Positions 14,928-45,300 of a stretch of DNA of 48,755 nucleotides are shown piece by piece. The notes beneath the pieces are model-generated. The model saw nothing but the letters and a program-made list of their open reading frames with translations. It was not told the DNA's origin and did not search any database. Numbering within the stretch: the first letter of the stretch is position 1; each line of letters starts with the position of its first letter. The position numbers were made by a program, and so were the translations under genes. The stretch covers positions 1 through 48,755 of the forward strand of contig DATFVL010000295.1 of the NCBI GenBank assembly GCA_035260325.1. The letters run 5' to 3'. This DNA is from Candidatus Methylomirabilota bacterium. Lineage in GTDB: Bacteria; Methylomirabilota; Methylomirabilia; Rokubacteriales; CSP1-6.

Positions 14928-15680
14928 CTACTGAGCCGTCCAGCCCCCGTCGATCACGAGCTCGCTGCCGGTCACGAAGGCGGACTCCTCCGAGGCGAGG
15001 TACAGGACACCGTACGCGACTTCGTCGGGCTCGCCGTAGCGACCGAGGGGGATGCGCGCGAGCATCCGCTGGTACTGCGCCGGATCGGCGCGGCGGCGCT
15101 CGGTCATGGGCGTGACGATCGGCCCGGGATGGACGGAGTTGGCCCGGATGCCGTCGCGCGCATACTGGAGCGCGGTCGTCTTCGTCAGGAGCCGCACCGC
15201 GCCCTTCGACGCCTGATACTGCGGGCTGCTGTCGTCCATCCCCACGAGGCCGAGCTGGGAGGAGATATTCACGATCGATCCTCCGCCGGCGCGGCGCATG
15301 GCGGGGATCACCGCCTTCGTGCCGAGGAACACGCCCTTGGCGTTGACGTCCATCACGCGGTCCCACGCCTCGACGGTGGTGTCTTCGATCCGGCTCGCGG
15401 CGCCGACGCCGGCGTTGTTCACGAGCACGTGGAGCCCGTCGAAGCGGTCGAGCGCCGCCGCGACGGCCCGCTCCCAGTCGGCCTCGCGCGTCACGTCGAG
15501 GCGCACGAACACGGCCCCGCCGCCCTTCGCGTTGACGTCGGCCTCGACCGCTTTGCCCTCCGCCTCGAGGACGTCGCCGATGACGACCCGCGCGCCTTCG
15601 CGGGCGAACAGGCGGGCCTCGGCGGCGCCCATGCCGCGCGCGCCGCCGCTGACGAGGGCGACCTTGCCCGCGAGCCTCAT
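14928..15680 (-). CDS. SDR family oxidoreductase
   Basis: A 250-aa classical SDR: S-G-G-A-R-G-M-G (11-18), acidic G-D-V after beta-2, N-N-A-G (88-91), Asn113, Ser140/141, Y155-Q-A-S-K159, and V-H-P-G-P-I-V-T-P-M. It ends V-I-D-G-G-W-T-A-Q, typical of FabG, cyclohexanol and 3-alpha-hydroxysteroid dehydrogenase-like SDRs. All catalytic residues are present. It begins 12 nt after the stop of the response-regulator gene on the same strand and probably shares its transcript, though a functional link is not obvious. Confidence 0.9.
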   Translation of the reverse strand: MRLAGKVALVSGGARGMGAAEARLFAREGARVVIGDVLEAEGKAVEADVNAKGGGAVFVRLDVTREADWERAVAAALDRFDGLHVLVNNAGVGAASRIEDTTVEAWDRVMDVNAKGVFLGTKAVIPAMRRAGGGSIVNISSQLGLVGMDDSSPQYQASKGAVRLLTKTTALQYARDGIRANSVHPGPIVTPMTERRRADPAQYQRMLARIPLGRYGEPDEVAYGVLYLASEESAFVTGSELVIDGGWTAQ

Positions 15681-15692
15681 GGCGCGTGCCGC

Positions 15693-16103
15693 TCAGCGGC
15701 TCGGCGGCTCCGGGCGCCGCGCGAACGGCGAGCGCGGGTCCAGAACCTCCCGCACCTTGCGCAGGAGGGCCTCGGGGCGAAACGGCTTGAAGACGAGCGG
15801 GTCGCCGGACTGTACGCCGCGGGCGGCGACGGCCGAGCTCGCGAAGCCGGACATGTACAACACCTTCGTGCTGGGCCGGAGCGGCCGCAGGCGGGCCGCG
15901 ACGTCGGGCCCGCTGAGGCCCGGCATGACGACGTCGGCCAGGAGGAGGGCGATGGGCTCCGGATGGCCGTCGGCGATCTCCAGGGCCTTCTCGCCGCTGT
16001 TGGCCTTCAGCACGCGGTAACCCTCGAGCTCGAGAAGTTCCCGCGCCAGCTCGAGCACCTGGGGGTCGTCGTCGACGAGCAGCACCGTCTCCCTGCGTTG
16101 CAT
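15693..16103 (-). CDS. Single-domain response regulator (receiver)
   Basis: A 136-aa CheY-like receiver. It has the acidic pocket D-D-D (11-13), phospho-acceptor Asp57 in L-L-L-A-D-V-V-M-P, Ser85 in Y-M-S-G-F and Lys106 in F-K-P-F. No output domain follows; the tail is a Pro/Arg-rich end of about 20 residues. The Y-M-S-G-F and F-K-P-F forms are typical of receivers fused to, or serving, hybrid histidine kinases. It may accept phosphate from a PAS/GAF kinase such as the one at the window end. Confidence 0.9.
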   Translation of the reverse strand: MQRRETVLLVDDDPQVLELARELLELEGYRVLKANSGEKALEIADGHPEPIALLLADVVMPGLSGPDVAARLRPLRPSTKVLYMSGFASSAVAARGVQSGDPLVFKPFRPEALLRKVREVLDPRSPFARRPEPPSR

Positions 16104-16160
16104 TCCTCGGTTACGTTACACCGAAGCCCCCGCCTTCGCGGGGCATTCGTACGGGGACGC

Positions 16161-16189
16161 TTGACCTCGGGGGCGCTTCGCCCTAGGGT
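16161..16189 (+). promoter_or_regulatory. Promoter of the hyuA operon, predicting a leaderless mRNA
   Basis: TTGACC (16161-16166), exactly 17 nt, then TAGGGT (16184-16189). Only 7 nt separate the -10 box from GTG 16197, so the start point falls on the start codon. There is no Shine-Dalgarno. Confidence 0.6.
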
Positions 16190-16196
16190 TTCGCCC

Positions 16197-18290
16197 GTGC
16201 CCGCCTACTCGCTCGGGATCGACATCGGCGGCACCTTCACCGACATCGTCGTCTACGACCACGACACCGGGCGGCGATGGAGCCGGAAGGTCCTGACGAC
16301 CCACGACGATCCCTCGCGCGCCGTCGCGGTGGGGACCGCCGCCGTCCTGCGGGCCGGACGCCTCGACCCCTCGCGGTTCACGCGCGTCGTCCACGCGACG
16401 ACGCTCTTCACCAACGCGCTCATCGAGCGCACGGGCGCGACGACGGGGCTCCTGACGACCGCCGGCTTCGCGGACACGCTCGAGATCGGGCGGGAGCGCA
16501 AGTACGAGCTCTACGACGTCAACCTCGCGCGCCCCGAGCCCCTCGTGCCGCGCGATCGTCGTCTCGAGGTCGCGGAGCGCACCCGGGCCGACGGCCACGT
16601 CGCCCGGAAGCTCGATCCGAGAGAGGTCCGGGCGCGCGCCCGGCGGCTCGTGGAGGCGGGCGCGACGTCGCTCGCCGTCGTCTTCCTGCACGCCTACGCG
16701 AACCCGCGGCACGAGGCCGAGGCCGTGCGCGTCGTCGCGCGGAGCTTCCCGCGCGTCGCGGTCACCGCCTCCCACGAGGTCGCGCCGGAGATCCGCGAGT
16801 ACGAGCGCGCCTCGACGACGGTCATCAACGCCTACATCAAGCCGCTCGCCCAGCGCTACCTCGACGTGATGGCGACGCGCCTCGCCGAGCTCGGCATCCC
16901 CGCCCCGCTGCTCCTCATGCTCTCGAGCGGCGGCCTCACCCACGTCACGGAGGCGCGGCGGACGCCCGTGCAGATGCTCGAGTCCGGTCCCGCCGCGGGC
17001 GCGCTGGCCGCGGCCTTTTTCGGGCGGGAGGACTCCGGCGGGAGCCTCCTCGCGTTCGACATGGGCGGCACGACGGCGAAGCTTTCGCTCGTGGACGGCG
17101 GCGAGCCCTTGACCGCGTACAGCTTCGAGGCGGCGCGGCAGCGGCGGTTCATCGAGGGCAGCGGCCTGCCGGTGCGCATCTCGACCATCGAGCTGATCGA
17201 GATCGGCGCCGGCGGCGGCTCGATCGCGGACGTGAGCGAGATCGGGCTCCTCCGGGTCGGCCCGCGCAGCGCCGGCTCCCAGCCCGGCCCGGCGTCGTAC
17301 TCGCTCGGCGGCACGGAGGCGACCGTGACGGACGCCGACTTCGTCCTGGGCTACCTGAACCCGGCGTACTTCGCGGGCGGCGAGGTCACGGTGGACCTGG
17401 ACGCCGCGCGCCGGGCGGTCGCCCGCGTCGCCGAGCGCGTGGGGCTCTCGCCGACCGCGGTGGCGTGGGGCATCCACGACATCGTCAACGAGAACATGGC
17501 GAGCGCGGCGCGCGTCCACATCGCCGAGCGCGGCCGCGACCCGCGCGACTACGCCCTCCTCTGCACCGGCGGCGCCGGGCCGGTCCACGCCCACGGCGTC
17601 GCGCTGAAGCTCGGGTTGCGGCGGGTGGTCTGCCCCCCGTCCGCGGGCGTCGCCTCGGCGCTCGGCCTCCTCGTGGCGCCCGCGCGCGTGGACCGCGTCG
17701 CGACGGTCGGGATCCGGCTCGACCAGGGGAGCGTCGCCGCGCTCGAGGCCGCGTTCCGGCGGCTCGAGGCCGAGGCACGCGCCGTCATGGCGGACACGGG
17801 GCTCAAGCTCGAGACGGCCACGGTCCGCCGGCTGGCCGACGGCCGGTTCCTCGGGCAGGGCTTCGACCTCGTCGTGACGCTCCCCGACGGGCCGTACGAC
17901 GACGGCGACGCGACCCGGCGCCGGCTGAGCAGCGCCTTCGAAGCCGCGTACCGCGAGAAGTTCGCGCTGACGCCACCCGACGTGCCCGTCGAGTTCATCA
18001 ACGTGCGGGTCGCGGTGCGCGCCCCCGTCGCCGGCGGGGACGTCGCCCTTCCGGGCGCGGCCCGGCGCGCGCGCGGCGACGCGGTCAAGGGCCGACGGCC
18101 GGCGTACTTCGGCGAGGCCGGCGGCTTCATCGAGACGACGGTCTACGACCGCTACCGCCTCGCGACCGGCGACGAGCTCGCCGGCCCCGCGGTGGTCGAG
18201 GAGGAGGGCTCGACCCTCGTCGTCGGCCCCGGCGCCTCGGCGCGCGTCGCGCCGAGCGGCAACGTCGTCGTGACGCTCGGGGCGCCGTGA
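16197..18290 (+). CDS. hyuA: Hydantoinase/oxoprolinase subunit A
   Basis: A 697-aa ATP-dependent hydantoinase A / acetone carboxylase beta family protein with the actin-like ATPase fold. The N-terminal G-I-D-I-G-G-T-F-T-D-I-V is phosphate-1, and L-L-A-F-D-M-G-G-T-T-A-K-L-S (about 283-296) begins the second lobe. G-A-G-G-G-S-I-A and L-C-T-G-G-A-G-P-V-H-A-H follow. With subunit B it hydrolyses cyclic amides such as hydantoins or 5-oxoproline at the cost of ATP. The GTG at 16197 begins the conserved sequence and abuts a promoter. Its TGA overlaps the GNAT start by 4 nt. Confidence 0.93.
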   Translation: MPAYSLGIDIGGTFTDIVVYDHDTGRRWSRKVLTTHDDPSRAVAVGTAAVLRAGRLDPSRFTRVVHATTLFTNALIERTGATTGLLTTAGFADTLEIGRERKYELYDVNLARPEPLVPRDRRLEVAERTRADGHVARKLDPREVRARARRLVEAGATSLAVVFLHAYANPRHEAEAVRVVARSFPRVAVTASHEVAPEIREYERASTTVINAYIKPLAQRYLDVMATRLAELGIPAPLLLMLSSGGLTHVTEARRTPVQMLESGPAAGALAAAFFGREDSGGSLLAFDMGGTTAKLSLVDGGEPLTAYSFEAARQRRFIEGSGLPVRISTIELIEIGAGGGSIADVSEIGLLRVGPRSAGSQPGPASYSLGGTEATVTDADFVLGYLNPAYFAGGEVTVDLDAARRAVARVAERVGLSPTAVAWGIHDIVNENMASAARVHIAERGRDPRDYALLCTGGAGPVHAHGVALKLGLRRVVCPPSAGVASALGLLVAPARVDRVATVGIRLDQGSVAALEAAFRRLEAEARAVMADTGLKLETATVRRLADGRFLGQGFDLVVTLPDGPYDDGDATRRRLSSAFEAAYREKFALTPPDVPVEFINVRVAVRAPVAGGDVALPGAARRARGDAVKGRRPAYFGEAGGFIETTVYDRYRLATGDELAGPAVVEEEGSTLVVGPGASARVAPSGNVVVTLGAP

Positions 18291-32722: not shown

Positions 32723-35700
32723 ATGAAGTGCGCGGGCTGCGGACAGGCGAATCCGGAGGGCGCCCGGTTCTGCAATGCCTGCGGCGCGCGGCTCGACGCC
32801 GCGCCGGCCCCCGCGCCGAGCGCCTACACGCCGCGGCACCTCGCCGAGAAGATCCTGACGTCGCGTGAGGCGCTCGAAGGCGAGCGCAAGCAGGTGACCG
32901 TCCTCTTCGCCGACCTCAAGGGCTCGATGGAGCTGCTCGCCGACCGCGACCCCGAGGAGGCGCGCCGGCTCCTCGACGCCGTCCTCGAGCGGATGATGGA
33001 GGCCGTCCACCGCTACGAGGGCACGGTGAACCAGGTGATGGGCGACGGGATCATGGCGCTCTTCGGCGCGCCGCTCGCGCACGAGGACCACGCGGTGCGC
33101 GCCTGCTACGCGGCGCTCCGTATGCAGGCGAGCGTGACCCGCTGGGCCGACGAGATCCAGCGCCTCGAGGGCACGAGCGTCCGAATCCGGGTCGGCCTCA
33201 ACTCGGGCGAGGTCCTCGTACGCTCGATCGGCAGCGACCTCCACATGGACTACACGGCGGTCGGCCAGACGACGCACCTCGCCGCCAGGATGGAGCAGAT
33301 GGCGGCGCCGGGGACGATCCTCATCACCCCGTGGACGCTCCGACTGGCCGAATGGGCGATCCGCGCGAGCCCCCTCGGGCCGCGGCCGGTCAGGGGCCTC
33401 GACGCGCCGCTCGAGGTCCACGAGCTCGTCGGCGCCGTCACGTCGCGCTCGATTCTGAAGTCGGCCGCGGCCCGCCGGCTCACCCGGTTCGTCGGCCGCC
33501 GGGCGGAGCTCGCACGGCTCCAGGAGATCCTCGCGGCGGCGCACGCCGGCCGCGGCCAGATGGCGGCGGTCACCGCGGACCCCGGCGTCGGCAAGACGCG
33601 GCTCGTCTACGAGCTCGTGCAGTCGTCGGACACCCGCGACTGGCGGGTCCTCGAGTCGAGCTCGGTCCTCTACGAGCAGATGACCTCGTACCTGCCGATC
33701 ATCGAGCTCCTCCGGAAGCACTTCGAGCTCGACGACGCCGACGGGACCTTGGAGACCGCGAGGAAGGCGGCGGCGAAGCTCCTCGGGCTCGACTCCGAGC
33801 TGGACGACGCGGTTGCCCCGATCCTGTCGCTGCTCGACGCGCTGCCGGAAGACGACCCGTTCCGCGCCCTCGACGCCCGCGAGCGCCGGCGGCGGATCCT
33901 CGATGCGCTGACGCGCATGATCCTCAGGGAGAGCGACCGGCAGCCCCTGCTCCTCGTCTTCGAGAACCTCCAGTGGGCGGACGCCGAGACCCAGGCCGTG
34001 CTCGACAGCCTGCTCGAGCGCGTCCTCGGGGCGCGTCTCATGCTCCTCCTCGACTACCGGCCGGAGTTCGAGCACGACTGGCGCAGTCGTCCCGGCTTCA
34101 GCGAAGTCGCGATCGCGCCGCTCGAGCCGGCGAGCGCCGAGGAACTCCTGCAGGCCCTGCTCGGCGCCGACCGATCGCTCGCGCCGCTCCGGCGGCTCTT
34201 GGTCGAGCGGAGCCAGGGCAACCCGTTCTACCTCGAGGAGATCGTCAGGACGCTCGCCGAGACCAAGGCGCTGGCCGGCGAGCGCGGCGCTTATCGCCTG
34301 GCGAGCGACCTCGACGGCCTCCAGGTGCCGGCGACGGTCCAGGCGGTGCTCGCCGCCCGGATCGACCGGCTGCCCCACGAGCAGAAGGTCCTGCTCCAAT
34401 CGGCGTCGGTCATCGGCGTCGACGTCCCCCTGGCGCTCCTCGAGGCGATCGCCGAGCGCCCTGCGGACGCGCTCCGGAGCACGCTCGGCGAGCTCGTGGC
34501 CCGGGGCTTCCTCGACGAGACCCGGCTCTTCCCCGACATCGAGTACCGGTTCAGGAACGTGCTCGCGCGCGACGTCGCGTACGCGAGCCTGCTCCGGGAG
34601 CAGCGCCGGGCGCTCCACGCGCGCATCGTCGAGGCGATCGAGACGGTCCACCGCGACCGCCTCCCGAACCACCTCGACCAGCTCGCCTACCACGCGACCA
34701 CCGGCGAGGTGTGGGCGAAGGCCGCGGTCTACAACCGCCAGGTCGCGGCGCGGGCGGTGGCGCGGTCGGCGAACCTCGAGGCCGTCCGGGCCTCCGGCGC
34801 CGCCCTCCACGCCGTCGGCCGCCTCCCGCAGACCCGGACGACGATCGAGCAGGCGATCGACATCCGGCTCGACATGCGGCCGCCGCTCCTCCAGCTCGGC
34901 CGCCTCGACGAGGTGCTCGCCGTCTCGCGCGAGGCCGAGCGGATCGCGCGAGAGCTCGGTGACGAGCAGCGGCTCGCCCGCGTCTACGCCTACCTCGTCA
35001 ACCATCACTACTTGAAGGGCGAGACCGCCCTCGCCATCGAGTACGGCGAGCGCTGCCTCGCCGTCGGCCGGACCATGAACGACGTCGCGCTCCAGGCCCT
35101 CGCGCGGCAGTACATCGGCCAGAGCCGGCACGCGCTCGGCGACCACGCGGGGGCCGAGCGGATCCTCCTCGAGAACGTCGAGGCGCTCGACGAGGCGCGC
35201 GCCGGCACCTCGTACGTCGCCTCGTGCGCGTGGCTGGCGATGAGCCTGGCCGATCGGGGCGAGTTCGAGGCCGCCTACGCCGCCGTCGGGCGCGCCCTCC
35301 TCGCCGCCGAGGGAACGCCGCACGCCTACAGCCAGACGATCGCGTGGACCATCGCCGGCCTCGTCTCGATCCGGCACGGCCACCTGGCGCGGGCCGTCCT
35401 GCCCCTCGAGCGCAGCTTGGAGGCGTGCCGGCGCAAGCGCCTGACGGTCTGGCAGCCGATCCCCTCGTCGCTGCTCGGCCTGGCCTTCGTCCGGATGGGC
35501 CACGTGCCCGAAGGGTTGAGCCTCCTCGAGGACGCCGTGCGCCTGAGCCGCGAGCTCGGCATCCGGGCCTATTTACCCTCGTGGATCACGAACCTCGCCG
35601 AGGGTTATCTGGCCGCCGCCCAGCACGCACGCGCGCGCGTCGCCGCCGAGGAGGCGCTCGAGCTGGCGACGGCCGGCGGCGAGCGCGGCCAGGAGGCCGC

Positions 35701-36199
35701 GGCGTTGGCGCTGCTCGGCGACATCGCCGCCCGCAGCGTCCCCGCGTGGGCCGAGGAGGCGCACGCGCGCTACGCCGCCGCCCTCGCCCTCGCGCGCGAG
35801 CTCGGGCTCCGGCCGCTCAGCGCCGAGATCCACCTCGGGGCGAGCCGCCTGTGCGCGGCGCTCGGTGCTGCGCCCGACGCCCGCCGGCACCGCGCGGCCG
35901 GCGAGGCGCTCCTCGGCGAGCTCAACATGCGCGCGTCGAGCCAGTGGGGCGAGACCGAGGTGGCCGAGCTCGGCCACCTCTTCATCGTGGCGCGGGCGAA
36001 CACCGACCTCTACGACTTCCTCGCGCAGGAGCTGTCCGACGCGCGGACGATCCAGGTGATCCTCGACCGGCGGCAGGGCGAGCGGCGCCAGCCGCCGGGC
36101 ACGTCCGCCGAGGACCGCCGTCAGGCCGAGCGTCGCCGGGCGCAGCTCGACGAGGACCTCCGAGACTGGGGCCTCGCCGTCGCGCCCCGCCGGCCATGA
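32723..36199 (+). CDS. Adenylate/guanylate cyclase-AAA ATPase-TPR regulator
   Basis: A 1158-aa multidomain protein. 1-25: zinc ribbon, C-x2-C near 3 and C-x2-C near 17. About 55-215: class III nucleotide cyclase, with metal aspartates in L-F-A-D-L-K-G-S and M-G-D-G-I-M-A-L-F-G. About 250-560: AAA/NB-ARC-like ATPase with Walker A A-D-P-G-V-G-K-T near 286-293 and the Q-G-N-P-F-Y-L-E-E segment seen in LuxR/cyclase-linked ATPases. About 600-1100: TPR repeats. It is an intracellular signalling scaffold that may make cAMP. TAAGCT sits 7 nt before the ATG. The TGA overlaps the crotonase start by 4 nt. Confidence 0.92.
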   Translation: MKCAGCGQANPEGARFCNACGARLDAAPAPAPSAYTPRHLAEKILTSREALEGERKQVTVLFADLKGSMELLADRDPEEARRLLDAVLERMMEAVHRYEGTVNQVMGDGIMALFGAPLAHEDHAVRACYAALRMQASVTRWADEIQRLEGTSVRIRVGLNSGEVLVRSIGSDLHMDYTAVGQTTHLAARMEQMAAPGTILITPWTLRLAEWAIRASPLGPRPVRGLDAPLEVHELVGAVTSRSILKSAAARRLTRFVGRRAELARLQEILAAAHAGRGQMAAVTADPGVGKTRLVYELVQSSDTRDWRVLESSSVLYEQMTSYLPIIELLRKHFELDDADGTLETARKAAAKLLGLDSELDDAVAPILSLLDALPEDDPFRALDARERRRRILDALTRMILRESDRQPLLLVFENLQWADAETQAVLDSLLERVLGARLMLLLDYRPEFEHDWRSRPGFSEVAIAPLEPASAEELLQALLGADRSLAPLRRLLVERSQGNPFYLEEIVRTLAETKALAGERGAYRLASDLDGLQVPATVQAVLAARIDRLPHEQKVLLQSASVIGVDVPLALLEAIAERPADALRSTLGELVARGFLDETRLFPDIEYRFRNVLARDVAYASLLREQRRALHARIVEAIETVHRDRLPNHLDQLAYHATTGEVWAKAAVYNRQVAARAVARSANLEAVRASGAALHAVGRLPQTRTTIEQAIDIRLDMRPPLLQLGRLDEVLAVSREAERIARELGDEQRLARVYAYLVNHHYLKGETALAIEYGERCLAVGRTMNDVALQALARQYIGQSRHALGDHAGAERILLENVEALDEARAGTSYVASCAWLAMSLADRGEFEAAYAAVGRALLAAEGTPHAYSQTIAWTIAGLVSIRHGHLARAVLPLERSLEACRRKRLTVWQPIPSSLLGLAFVRMGHVPEGLSLLEDAVRLSRELGIRAYLPSWITNLAEGYLAAAQHARARVAAEEALELATAGGERGQEAAALALLGDIAARSVPAWAEEAHARYAAALALARELGLRPLSAEIHLGASRLCAALGAAPDARRHRAAGEALLGELNMRASSQWGETEVAELGHLFIVARANTDLYDFLAQELSDARTIQVILDRRQGERRQPPGTSAEDRRQAERRRAQLDEDLRDWGLAVAPRRP

Positions 36200-42075: not shown

Positions 42076-42267
42076 CTACGAGGCCTTGAAGGCGATCTTG
42101 TTGTGCGTCCCGTCGCAGAACGGCTTGTTGCTCGAGCCGCCGCAGCGGCAGAGCGCGATCGTCGGCCTGCCGCCCGTGTCGAGCTTCTTGCCGGAGGCGT
42201 CGTACACCTCGACCTCGCCCTCGACCACGTTCGGACCGTTGGGACGCACGGTGATCTTGACGGGCAT
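42076..42267 (-). CDS. CDGSH iron-sulfur domain protein
   Basis: A 63-aa protein with one CDGSH site: A-L-C-R-C-G-G-S-S-N-K-P-F-C-D-G-T-H, giving the 3Cys-1His ligands for a [2Fe-2S] cluster. A short beta strand leader (V-K-I-T-V-R-P-N-G-P-N-V-V-E-G) precedes it. Bacterial members are redox or Fe-S transfer proteins. The ATG at 42267 has GAGGAGGAG upstream. It is divergent from the radical SAM selenoprotein gene. Confidence 0.93.
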   Translation of the reverse strand: MPVKITVRPNGPNVVEGEVEVYDASGKKLDTGGRPTIALCRCGGSSNKPFCDGTHNKIAFKAS

Positions 42268-42330: not shown

Positions 42331-43752
42331 GTGAGAGAGCCCGGCGCGATCCTGCTCGTCGCCTGCTACGAGCTCGGCCACCAGCCGCTCGCCGTCGCGT
42401 GGCCGGCGGCGTTCCTCGAGCGCGCCGGGTACGCGCCCGCGGTCCTGGACCTCTCCGTCGAGCCCTTCGACGCTGAGCGGGTCGCGCGCGCGCGGCTCGT
42501 CGCGATCTCGGTGCCGATGCACACGGCGCTGCGCCTGGGCGCCGGGGTCGCCGCGCGCGTGCGGGCGGCGAACCCCCGCTGCCACGTCGCCTTCTACGGG
42601 CTCTACGCGAGCCTCAACGCGGGCCACCTCCTCGCCCACGGCGCCGACTCGGTGCTCTCGGGCGAGGTCGAGAGCGCCCTCGTGGACCTCGCGGGGCGGC
42701 TCGAGCGCGAGCCGCGCGCGACCGCCCGGCCCCGACCCATCCTCGCGAAGCTCGACTTCCCCGTGCCGAGCCGCGCGGGGCTCCCCGCGCTCAAGCGCTA
42801 CGCGCACGTCGAGAAGGGCGGCCGCCTCGAGCTGGCGGGCTACGTGGAAGCGAGCCGCGGCTGCAAGCACCTCTGCCGCCACTGCCCGATCCCCCCCGTC
42901 TACGGCGGGCGCTTCTTCGTCGTGCCGGAGGCGGTCGTGCTCGCGGACGTCCGCCAGCAGGTCGCGGCCGGCGCGACCCACGTCACGTTCGGCGATCCCG
43001 ACTTCCTGAACGGCCCGGGCCACGCGCTCCGCGTGGCGCGGGCGCTCCACGCCGAGTTCCCGAGCGTCACCTTCGACGTCACCGCGAAGGTGGAGCACCT
43101 GCTGCGCCACCGCGACCGGCTCCCCGAGCTCGCCCGCCTCGGCTGCATCTTCGCCGTCACGGCCGCCGAGTCCCTGAGCGACACGGTGCTCGCGCACCTC
43201 GCCAAGGGCCACACGCGCGCGGACGTCGTCGCCGCGCTCCGCGCGGTCCGCGACGCCGGCATCGCGCCGCGGCCGACGTGGGTGCCCTTCACGCCGTGGA
43301 CGACGCTCGACGACTATCGCGAGCTCCTCGACTTCGTCGAGGACGAGGGGCTCGTCGACGCCATCGATCCCGTGCAGTACTCGATCCGGCTCCTCGTGCC
43401 GCCGGGCTCCCTCCTCCTCGAGAGCCCCGCCCTCGCGCCGCACCTCGGGCCGCTGGTCGCGGACGCCTTCCACCATCGCTGGACGCATCCGGACCCGCGC
43501 ATGGACAGGCTCGCCGGCGCCGTCGCCGCGCTCGTCGCGGAGGCCGCCGACCGGCGCGAGGACCCCGCCGCGACGTTCGACCGCATCTGGCGGCTCGCCG
43601 ACGAGACGGCCGGCGCGCCGTCGCGCGCCGCGGTCGCGCCGCGGCCCGAGCGCGAGCGGCCGCCGCGGCTCACCGAGCCCTGGTTCTGCTGAGCGGAGCC
43701 CACCGAGGGCCAGTTGGCCTTGAGCGGACTTTCGGGTACAGTACCGGTGTAG
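42331..43752 (+). CDS. Radical SAM selenoprotein with C-U-A-E-P tail (TGA at 43690-43692 read as Sec454)
   Basis: A 473-aa protein. An N-terminal B12-binding-like Rossmann region (about 1-125) is followed by a radical SAM core with C178-K-H-L-C182-R-H-C185. V-T-F-G-D-P-D-F-L-N, V-T-A-A-E-S-L-S and S-I-R-L-L-V-P-P-G-S lie in the barrel. TGA 43690-43692 follows P-W-F-C453. Read as Sec454 it gives C-U-A-E-P, 16 more residues, and TAG 43750-43752, 10 nt before the NifU-like gene. I recall an NCBI family named for exactly this CUAEP/CCAEP tail. A terminal Cys-Sec pair may be a redox or metal-sulfur ligand. The start is GTG 42331 (TACACT 6 nt upstream). Confidence 0.85.
43703..43727 (+). promoter_or_regulatory. 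SECIS-like hairpin of the radical SAM selenoprotein
   Basis: AGGGCC (43706-43711) pairs with GGCCTT (43716-43721; one G-U) around the loop AGTT, with a further 3 bp CCG/CGG (43703-43705 and 43725-43727) across a 3-nt bulge. The loop begins 20 nt after the TGA and has G at its second position, the same geometry as the two peroxidase genes. Confidence 0.68.
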
Positions 43753-43762
43753 AGGTGGAGCC

Positions 43763-44044
43763 ATGAGCGACGATCTCAAGCAAAAGGTCCAGGAGCTGAT
43801 CGACACGATGATCAACCCGGCGGTCGCCGGCCACGGCGGCTTCGTCGAGCTCATCGACGTGCAGGACAACCGCGTCTATCTCCAGATGGGCGGCGGCTGT
43901 CAGGGCTGCGGCGCCGCGGACGTCACGCTGAAGGCGGGGATCGAGCGGCTGATCAAGGAAGAGCTCCCCGAGGTCGTGGAGGTCCTGGACACGACCGACC
44001 ACGCCGCCGGCGCCAACCCTTACTACACGCCGGGCAAAGCCTAG
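43763..44044 (+). CDS. NifU-like C-terminal domain Fe-S scaffold
   Basis: A 93-aa NifU C-terminal domain protein. L-I-D-V-Q-D-N-R-V-Y-L-Q-M and G-G-G-C-Q-G-C-G-A-A-D-V-T-L-K-A-G-I-E-R are the family signature; the C-x2-C binds or transfers [Fe-S] clusters. The tail (A-N-P-Y-Y-T-P-G-K-A) is non-conserved. ATG 43763 follows the true stop of the radical SAM selenoprotein by 10 nt, with GAGGTGGAG as ribosome site. It probably matures the radical SAM cluster of its neighbour. Confidence 0.93.
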   Translation: MSDDLKQKVQELIDTMINPAVAGHGGFVELIDVQDNRVYLQMGGGCQGCGAADVTLKAGIERLIKEELPEVVEVLDTTDHAAGANPYYTPGKA

Positions 44045-44070: not shown

Positions 44071-45300
44071 ATGGACCGGGTGCTCCTCCTCCTCCCGACC
44101 ACCACCTATCGCACCCAGGCCTTCGTGGACGCCGCCCGCACGCTCGGCGTCGACCTCGTGTGCGCGTCCGAGCGTCCCAGCACGCTCGAGGCGCACGCGC
44201 CCGAGAGCCTGATCACCCTGGACTTCGACCGCCCGGCCGCCGCCGCGGCGGCCGTCGCCCGCTTCGCCAGCGCGCGGCGCCTCGACGCGGTCGTCGGCGT
44301 GGATGATCGCACGGCGGAGGCCGCGGCCGCGATCGCCGCGCGCCTCGGCCTCAAGGCGAGCGCCCCGGCGGCGGTCCACGCCGCCCGCGACAAGCACGAG
44401 ATGCGCGAGCGCCTCGCCGCCGCCGGCGTCCCCGTGCCCCGCTTCCGCCTCGTGCGGCTCGCCGACGACCCCGCGCGCGTCGCGGCGGACGTCGCCTACC
44501 CGTGCGTCCTCAAGCCGCTCGCGCTGTCCGCGAGCCGCGGCGTGATCCGCGCCGACGACCCCACGGGCTTCGTCGCCGCGTTCCGCCGCGTCGCCGCGAT
44601 CCTGCGCGGCGACGACGCGGGCGTGTCCGGCAAGGCGGCCGAGCACCTGCTCGTCGAGGCGTTCGTGCCGGGCCGCGAGGTCGCGCTCGAGGGTCTGCTG
44701 ACGGGGGGCGGGCTCCAGACGCTCGCGCTCTTCGACAAGCCGGACCCGCTCGACGGGCCCTTCTTCGAGGAAACGATCTACGTGACGCCGTCGCGGCTCT
44801 CCGCCGACACGCAGGCGCGGATCGAGCGTGTGACGGTCGCGGCCTGCGCCGCGCTCGGACTGACGGAGGGGCCCATCCACGCCGAGCTCCGCGTAAACGA
44901 GGCGGGCCCGTGGGTGCTCGAGGTCGCGCCGCGCTCGATCGGCGGCCTCTGCTCACGCACGCTCCGCTTCGGGACGGGCATGACGCTCGAGGAGCTGATC
45001 CTCCGTCACGCGCTCGGCTGGAAGATCGAATCGCTCGAGCGCGAGCGCCGCGCCGCGGGCGTGATGATGATCCCGATCCCCCGCGCGGGCCGCCTCGCCG
45101 AGGTGCGCGGCCGCGACGCCGCCGCCGCGGTCCCGGACGTCGAGGAGGTCACGCTGACCGCGCACCTGGGCCAGGAGCTCACGCCGCTGCCCGAGGGCTG
45201 GCAGTACCTGGGCTTCATCTTCGCGCGCGCGGAGACGCCCGAGGCGGTCGAGCGCGCGCTCCGCGCCGCGCACGCCCGCCTGGCGTTCGACATTGCGTAA
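44071..45300 (+). CDS. ATP-grasp domain enzyme
   Basis: A 409-aa ATP-grasp protein. The N-terminal Rossmann part has D-A-V-V-G-V-D-D-R-T-A and A-A-R-D-K-H-E-M-R-E-R-L-A-A-A-G-V-P-V-P-R-F. The grasp core has P-C-V-L-K-P-L-A-L-S-A-S-R-G-V and L-V-E-A-F-V-P-G-R-E-V-A-L-E-G, and the metal loop E-L-R-V-N-E-A-G-P-W-V-L-E-V-A-P-R-S-I-G-G. It joins a carboxylate to an amine or thiol using ATP; the substrate is unknown. It starts 26 nt after the NifU-like gene, in one array with the radical SAM selenoprotein, so it may act on that enzyme's product. Confidence 0.9.
   Translation: MDRVLLLLPTTTYRTQAFVDAARTLGVDLVCASERPSTLEAHAPESLITLDFDRPAAAAAAVARFASARRLDAVVGVDDRTAEAAAAIAARLGLKASAPAAVHAARDKHEMRERLAAAGVPVPRFRLVRLADDPARVAADVAYPCVLKPLALSASRGVIRADDPTGFVAAFRRVAAILRGDDAGVSGKAAEHLLVEAFVPGREVALEGLLTGGGLQTLALFDKPDPLDGPFFEETIYVTPSRLSADTQARIERVTVAACAALGLTEGPIHAELRVNEAGPWVLEVAPRSIGGLCSRTLRFGTGMTLEELILRHALGWKIESLERERRAAGVMMIPIPRAGRLAEVRGRDAAAAVPDVEEVTLTAHLGQELTPLPEGWQYLGFIFARAETPEAVERALRAAHARLAFDIA

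Follow-up and report, generated by a model that had tools for sequence, protein, structure and literature searches.

A predicted radical SAM selenoprotein of the CUAEP/CCAEP-tail family in a Rokubacteriales genome, and a possible ArsL-like role for its Cys-Sec tail

The gene and its reading frame

The stretch of Rokubacteriales DNA analyzed here (48,755 nt; hereafter the window) carries on its forward strand a radical SAM gene at 42331–43752, with a GTG start and a TAG stop, which encodes 473 residues if an in-frame TGA is read as selenocysteine (Sec) at position 454. The frame runs for 453 residues from the GTG at 42331, ending with a TGC codon for Cys453 (43687–43689), and then meets the TGA (43690–43692); beyond it come 19 codons (AEPTEGQLALSGLSGTVPV; 43693–43749), GCG GAG CCC for A-E-P and then 16 more, before the TAG at 43750–43752. 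The ATG of the next gene, preceded by AGGTGGAG, is at 43763. Since this is 10 nt past the TAG, read-through is compatible with an operon. A sequence-only reading of this DNA had already followed the frame past the TGA after P-W-F-C, through A-E-P and 16 residues, to the TAG; the sequence agrees with it, and the spacing fits. Farther upstream are a CX3CX2C motif for the radical SAM [4Fe-4S] cluster (CKHLCRHC, 42862–42885; C178, C182, and C185) and, at the end of the first strand, the codon for Cys12 (42364–42366, in ACYELGHQP).

Over profile positions 1–467 of 468, the protein scores 695.5 bits (curated cut-off, 500 bits) with the NCBIfam profile NF040546, that of the “CUAEP/CCAEP-tail radical SAM (seleno)protein” family, which the sequence-only reading had named. 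It agrees with this family in full-length score, in the C-terminal C-[U/C]-A-E-P (here CUAEP), and in the CX3CX2C motif, with no difference found, and is a member of it. Pfam matches are to Radical_SAM (PF04055) and, at 35.7 bits, B12-binding (PF02310). NF040546 is already catalogued, so this gene is a further member; what is added here is the covariation of a SECIS-like hairpin, the alternation of Cys and Sec together with the decoding machinery, and a proposal based on the enzyme ArsL. The NF040546 entry itself names no reaction, and the earlier view that the reaction of the family is not known still holds: a search of the open-access literature found no paper describing either CUAEP or RCCLKC, the tail motif of ArsL. 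A 2026 selenoproteome review does not have NF040546 among the selenoproteins it lists (PMC13188914). Other radical SAM selenoproteins (TIGR04167; TrsS, NF045646) share Sec in a radical SAM protein but are separate families, as is SaoC, with a Cys-Sec (CU) pair near its C-terminus (PMC13188914).

Neighboring genes

As defined by a codon-usage gene call, the radical SAM gene is followed on the same strand by a conserved second gene, for a 93-aa Nfu-like [Fe-S] carrier domain protein (43763–44044; PF01106), and a conserved third, for an ATP-grasp protein resembling L-amino acid ligases (44071–45300; PF13535 and LAL_C2), whose closest solved structure is the L-amino acid ligase 3vot (E = 3.8e-34). 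Divergent from the radical SAM gene, on the reverse strand, is a gene for a small CDGSH iron-sulfur protein (42076–42267), a frequent neighbor in Rokubacteria. The Nfu-like protein is the sole PF01106 match in the genome and may therefore be a housekeeping protein rather than a dedicated one.

Most Rokubacteria have the three-gene row (radical SAM, Nfu-like, ATP-grasp), which also occurs in Acidobacteria, Planctomycetes, and Tectomicrobia. In Nitrospirae the order is DUF169, radical SAM, ATP-grasp: at several loci (L081, L113, L119, and others) DUF169 (PF02596) takes the place of Nfu beside a radical SAM gene with a Cys codon at the Sec position, and a protein of ~142 aa is encoded further on, on the opposite strand. 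The ATP-grasp gene is the partner common to both types: it is present at 36 of the 52 loci with Sec and at 16 of the 27 with Cys. In Gemmatimonadetes (L090, L093) a bacilliredoxin-type gene (PF06491, with a CGC motif) follows the radical SAM gene.

Homologues and the alternation of Cys and Sec

At least 517 relatives turned up when 84,980 species genomes were scanned, and 80 of them were kept. Among the 79 of these with a readable tail, the codon at the Sec position is TGA in 52 and TGC or TGT in 27, and WFC-[U/C]-x-E-P is conserved in all; the three codons alternate at this single position, with the tail around it conserved, across about ten phylum-level groups. Homologues with CCAEP-type tails had been suggested as something to look for, and the 27 with an ordinary Cys codon are these; a selenoprotein would have been spoken against by homologues that stop naturally at the Cys and lack A-E-P beyond it, but all 79 tails continue. 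Outside CX3CX2C, the only invariant Cys or Sec positions in 77 aligned sequences are C12 (77 of 77), C453, and [U/C]454. E456, P457, and Q461 persist in the Cys-codon homologues, where the hairpin described below is absent, so the C-terminal extension matters as protein; by this conservation the ~20 residues past Sec are part of the functional protein.

Within the class to which the window belongs, the gene is present in 66 of 95 genomes, with TGA in every match that reaches the tail. On a quick tree the Sec and Cys labels switch at least four to five times; rooting by ArsL suggests that Cys is ancestral and that Sec was gained and then lost, but this root is unsafe, with long branches. A plasmid copy from Thermomicrobium roseum (L131:5950-7386) is annotated as ending at WFC, with TGA-GCG-GAG-CCG and a differently paired hairpin downstream. 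Its annotation looks truncated at the Sec codon, and it is one of some annotations that still stop the protein at UGA.

The SECIS-like hairpin

A 6-bp hairpin (43706–43721, forward strand) begins 13 nt after the UGA, with arms at 43706–43711 and 43716–43721 and the loop AGUU at 43712–43715. The sequence-only reading had placed a hairpin of SECIS geometry at 43703–43727; the hairpin is real and covarying, but only a core lying within those borders is conserved. In 59 distinct TGA sequences an average of 5.86 of the six stem pairs are kept, compared to 2.93 in 27 Cys-codon homologues and 3.2 in shuffled sequences, and both-sided compensatory changes occur at pairs 2 to 5 (C-G to T-A or G-C, and G-C to A-T). 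Minimum free energy z-scores are −2.06 for TGA sequences and −0.12 for Cys-codon sequences (p = 2.8e-8). For the invariant Gln461, 58 of 59 TGA sequences use the codon CAG, as against only 12 of 27 Cys-codon sequences, the other 15 having CAA; this bias is selection on the RNA rather than on the protein. There is thus a conserved hairpin just 3′ of the UGA with G/U in its apical loop, as is required of a bacterial SECIS (bSECIS). An Rfam scan of the window gave no family at gathering score, so the element is called from covariation rather than from a model.

Selenocysteine machinery

The window genome has SelA (587 bits) and tRNA-Sec (69.8 bits). SelB is present as an N-terminal piece cut by a contig end, and SelD as two contig-end pieces, one with an in-frame TGA at the usual place of the active Cys or Sec. 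The four components expected where a bacterial selenoprotein is made (SelA, SelB, SelD, and tRNA-Sec) are therefore all found, SelB as a fragment. The selD piece with the TGA (L128:1441-1689, at the end of genome contig C183) reads YAACAGUASKM, and SelD of this genome is probably itself a selenoprotein; the formate dehydrogenase of the same genome has no in-frame TGA within its match.

Across genomes, counting TGA types outside Rokubacteria, SelA accompanies the gene in 12 of 17 TGA-type but only 2 of 27 Cys-type genomes (Fisher p = 2e-5). It does not discriminate within the window's class, because 83 of the 95 genomes there carry it. Five TGA-type genomes (L082, L084, L090, L094, L122) have no SelA match at E 1e-30, a gap tentatively attributed to incomplete assemblies or else to a divergent SelA.

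That the TGA might be a true stop, with the protein ending at Cys453 and the downstream frame there by chance or recently dead, could draw on the T. roseum copy, which ends at WFC in automatic annotation, and on the five genomes lacking a SelA match, but these may be incomplete MAGs, the host genome here carries the Sec machinery, the same residues are read through with a Cys codon in 27 homologues, and the hairpin covaries only in TGA copies, leaving this explanation with hardly any probability. The selenoprotein that the sequence-only reading had proposed is borne out by four independent lines, namely the 52 TGA and 27 Cys codons, the TGA-only covariation, the residues of the extension kept in Cys-codon homologues, and the machinery in the genome; judged by these sequence data, both the family identity and the decoding of the TGA as Sec are close to certain.

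Predicted structure and relationship to ArsL

The AlphaFold model is of good overall quality (pLDDT 91.5), with 89 for residues 441–450 and 66 for the tail (451–460). The best solved Foldseek match is AprD4 (PDB 6fd2; TM 0.65–0.70), followed by TsrM, OxsB, MgmA, and MiaB. AprD4, a radical SAM 1,2-diol dehydratase, is the closest in fold but only ~20% identical, has a different reaction, and by sequence shows no Cys-Sec tail. The cobalamin radical SAM enzymes TsrM, OxsB, and MgmA share with the CUAEP proteins an N-terminal B12-binding-like fold followed by a radical SAM barrel, but CYELGHQP is an N-terminal motif that only the CUAEP proteins have, and their cobalamin binding is putative, going by the PF02310 match.

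The nearest other family in sequence is ArsL, the enzyme proposed for making an arsenic-containing antibiotic, arsinothricin, by joining a 3-amino-3-carboxypropyl group to arsenite (PMC8552651). The ArsL profile (NF040542; cut-off, 450 bits) scores 298.3 bits on the window protein, under its cut-off; in the other direction, ArsL proteins score 298–373 bits on NF040546, with the next families below 80 bits. CUAEP and ArsL proteins are 31–36% identical, and are parted by one split at full support in the quick tree. They share the same order of folds, a set of three soft residues apart from those of the cluster motif, and, at several loci, an ATP-grasp neighbor: ATP-grasp genes lie beside the ArsL genes on three plasmids. 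Against the parallel, the ATP-grasp proteins of the two families are only ~25% identical.

The differences lie mainly in the tail and the surroundings. ArsL ends in RCCLKC, lacks Cys12 and Sec, and is found among arsenic genes; CUAEP proteins have the invariant Cys12, and their tail runs on as AEPTxxQ instead of ending in RCCLKC. In an alignment including four ArsL sequences, on which the residue comparison rests, the CC of RCCLKC falls on the Cys-Sec pair, while the third tail Cys of ArsL has no CUAEP partner and none of the four has a Cys at position 12. Besides the cluster motif, each family would then have three soft residues, of which one has a different place in the two. The ArsL tail is presumably an arsenite-binding site; the literature searched gave no statement of this. 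Arsenic is nonetheless doubtful as the CUAEP substrate: across the 1.14 Mb of sequence surrounding the 80 CUAEP loci, nothing convincingly matched any of 13 query genes, arsenic and arsinothricin genes from the plasmid ArsL loci (efflux, ArsR, ArsM, ArsN1, and others).

Possible functions of the Cys-Sec tail

The homology to ArsL, the arrangement of the tail, and the ligase partner together suggest a soft-atom mechanism. The CX3CX2C cluster would cleave SAM; the tail pair Cys453-Sec454 would fold back and form, with Cys12, a putative three-ligand soft site, holding an electrophilic soft atom or group (in ArsL, As(III)) beside the radical derived from SAM. The soft atom might then receive a carbon fragment, with 3-amino-3-carboxypropyl the likeliest, to give an unusual amino acid, which the neighboring ATP-grasp ligase would join to another amino acid; the neighboring Nfu protein could supply or restore Fe-S clusters. 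An ArsL-like mechanism of this kind is held tentatively, by analogy. Taken as a whole, a Sec-containing NF040546 enzyme with ArsL-like soft-atom chemistry and a ligation step is the best explanation we can offer, and one to which we would give somewhat under an even chance.

For the tail itself, the kinship with ArsL leans toward a substrate-carrying function (binding of a soft atom) over a redox one. A redox arm would use the Cys-Sec pair as a selenenylsulfide, moving electrons during turnover or ensuring that the enzyme can still be reduced when the cell is aerobic. Redox activity is established for neighboring Cys and Sec residues in C-terminal tails such as that of mammalian thioredoxin reductase, and the bacilliredoxin-type protein adjoining the radical SAM gene in Gemmatimonadetes would suit such an arm; this neighbor is confined to Gemmatimonadetes, however, no recurrent thioredoxin-like partner was found elsewhere, and a redox arm leaves both the invariant Cys12 and the parallel to the RCCLKC of ArsL unexplained. 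We consider it rather unlikely.

Unlikely too, and placed after the redox arm, is that Cys12, Cys453, and Sec454 ligate an open-site auxiliary Fe-S cluster consumed as a sulfur source, as in lipoyl synthase and MiaB, and rebuilt by Nfu. NfuA restores the cluster of Escherichia coli lipoyl synthase; Nfu is the conserved next gene, adjoining the radical SAM gene at 43 of 79 loci; the latter lies inside a suf operon at L077, L086, and L123 and adjoins IscA and Rrf2 at L099, L103, and L122; and MiaB is among the Foldseek matches. Against this, Nfu may be housekeeping, as the genome has no other PF01106 protein, it is mostly missing from the Cys-type Nitrospirae loci, and there is no classical three-Cys auxiliary motif.

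For the soft-atom mechanism, the kinship with ArsL, the alternation of Cys and Sec, and the third invariant Cys give a testable proposal for a family without an assigned reaction, namely that a site with a selenolate offers a soft atom to a radical derived from SAM; ArsL as nearest relative is a concrete lead to the function of the family. It is conceivable, if doubtful, that across Rokubacteria, Nitrospirae, Acidobacteria, and Gemmatimonadetes the CUAEP enzymes bond carbon to As, Se, or another soft element on the Cys-Sec-Cys site and, together with the ATP-grasp ligase, yield an unrecognized class of element-containing amino acids or dipeptides. Bacteria of soil and groundwater commonly carry members of the family, Nitrospira-type Cys homologues among them, and the Cys-type proteins offer a direct path to recombinant protein for which the Sec machinery is not needed.

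Other observations in the window

Two further forward-strand genes in the window stand out. One (32723–36199) encodes a protein of 1158 aa that, from its translation only, appears to begin with a zinc ribbon and to contain a nucleotide-cyclase-like segment as well as a large ATPase/repeat part. The other (15129–18290) encodes a hydantoinase/oxoprolinase (PF01968, PF05378), and its frame includes a long additional N-terminal part.
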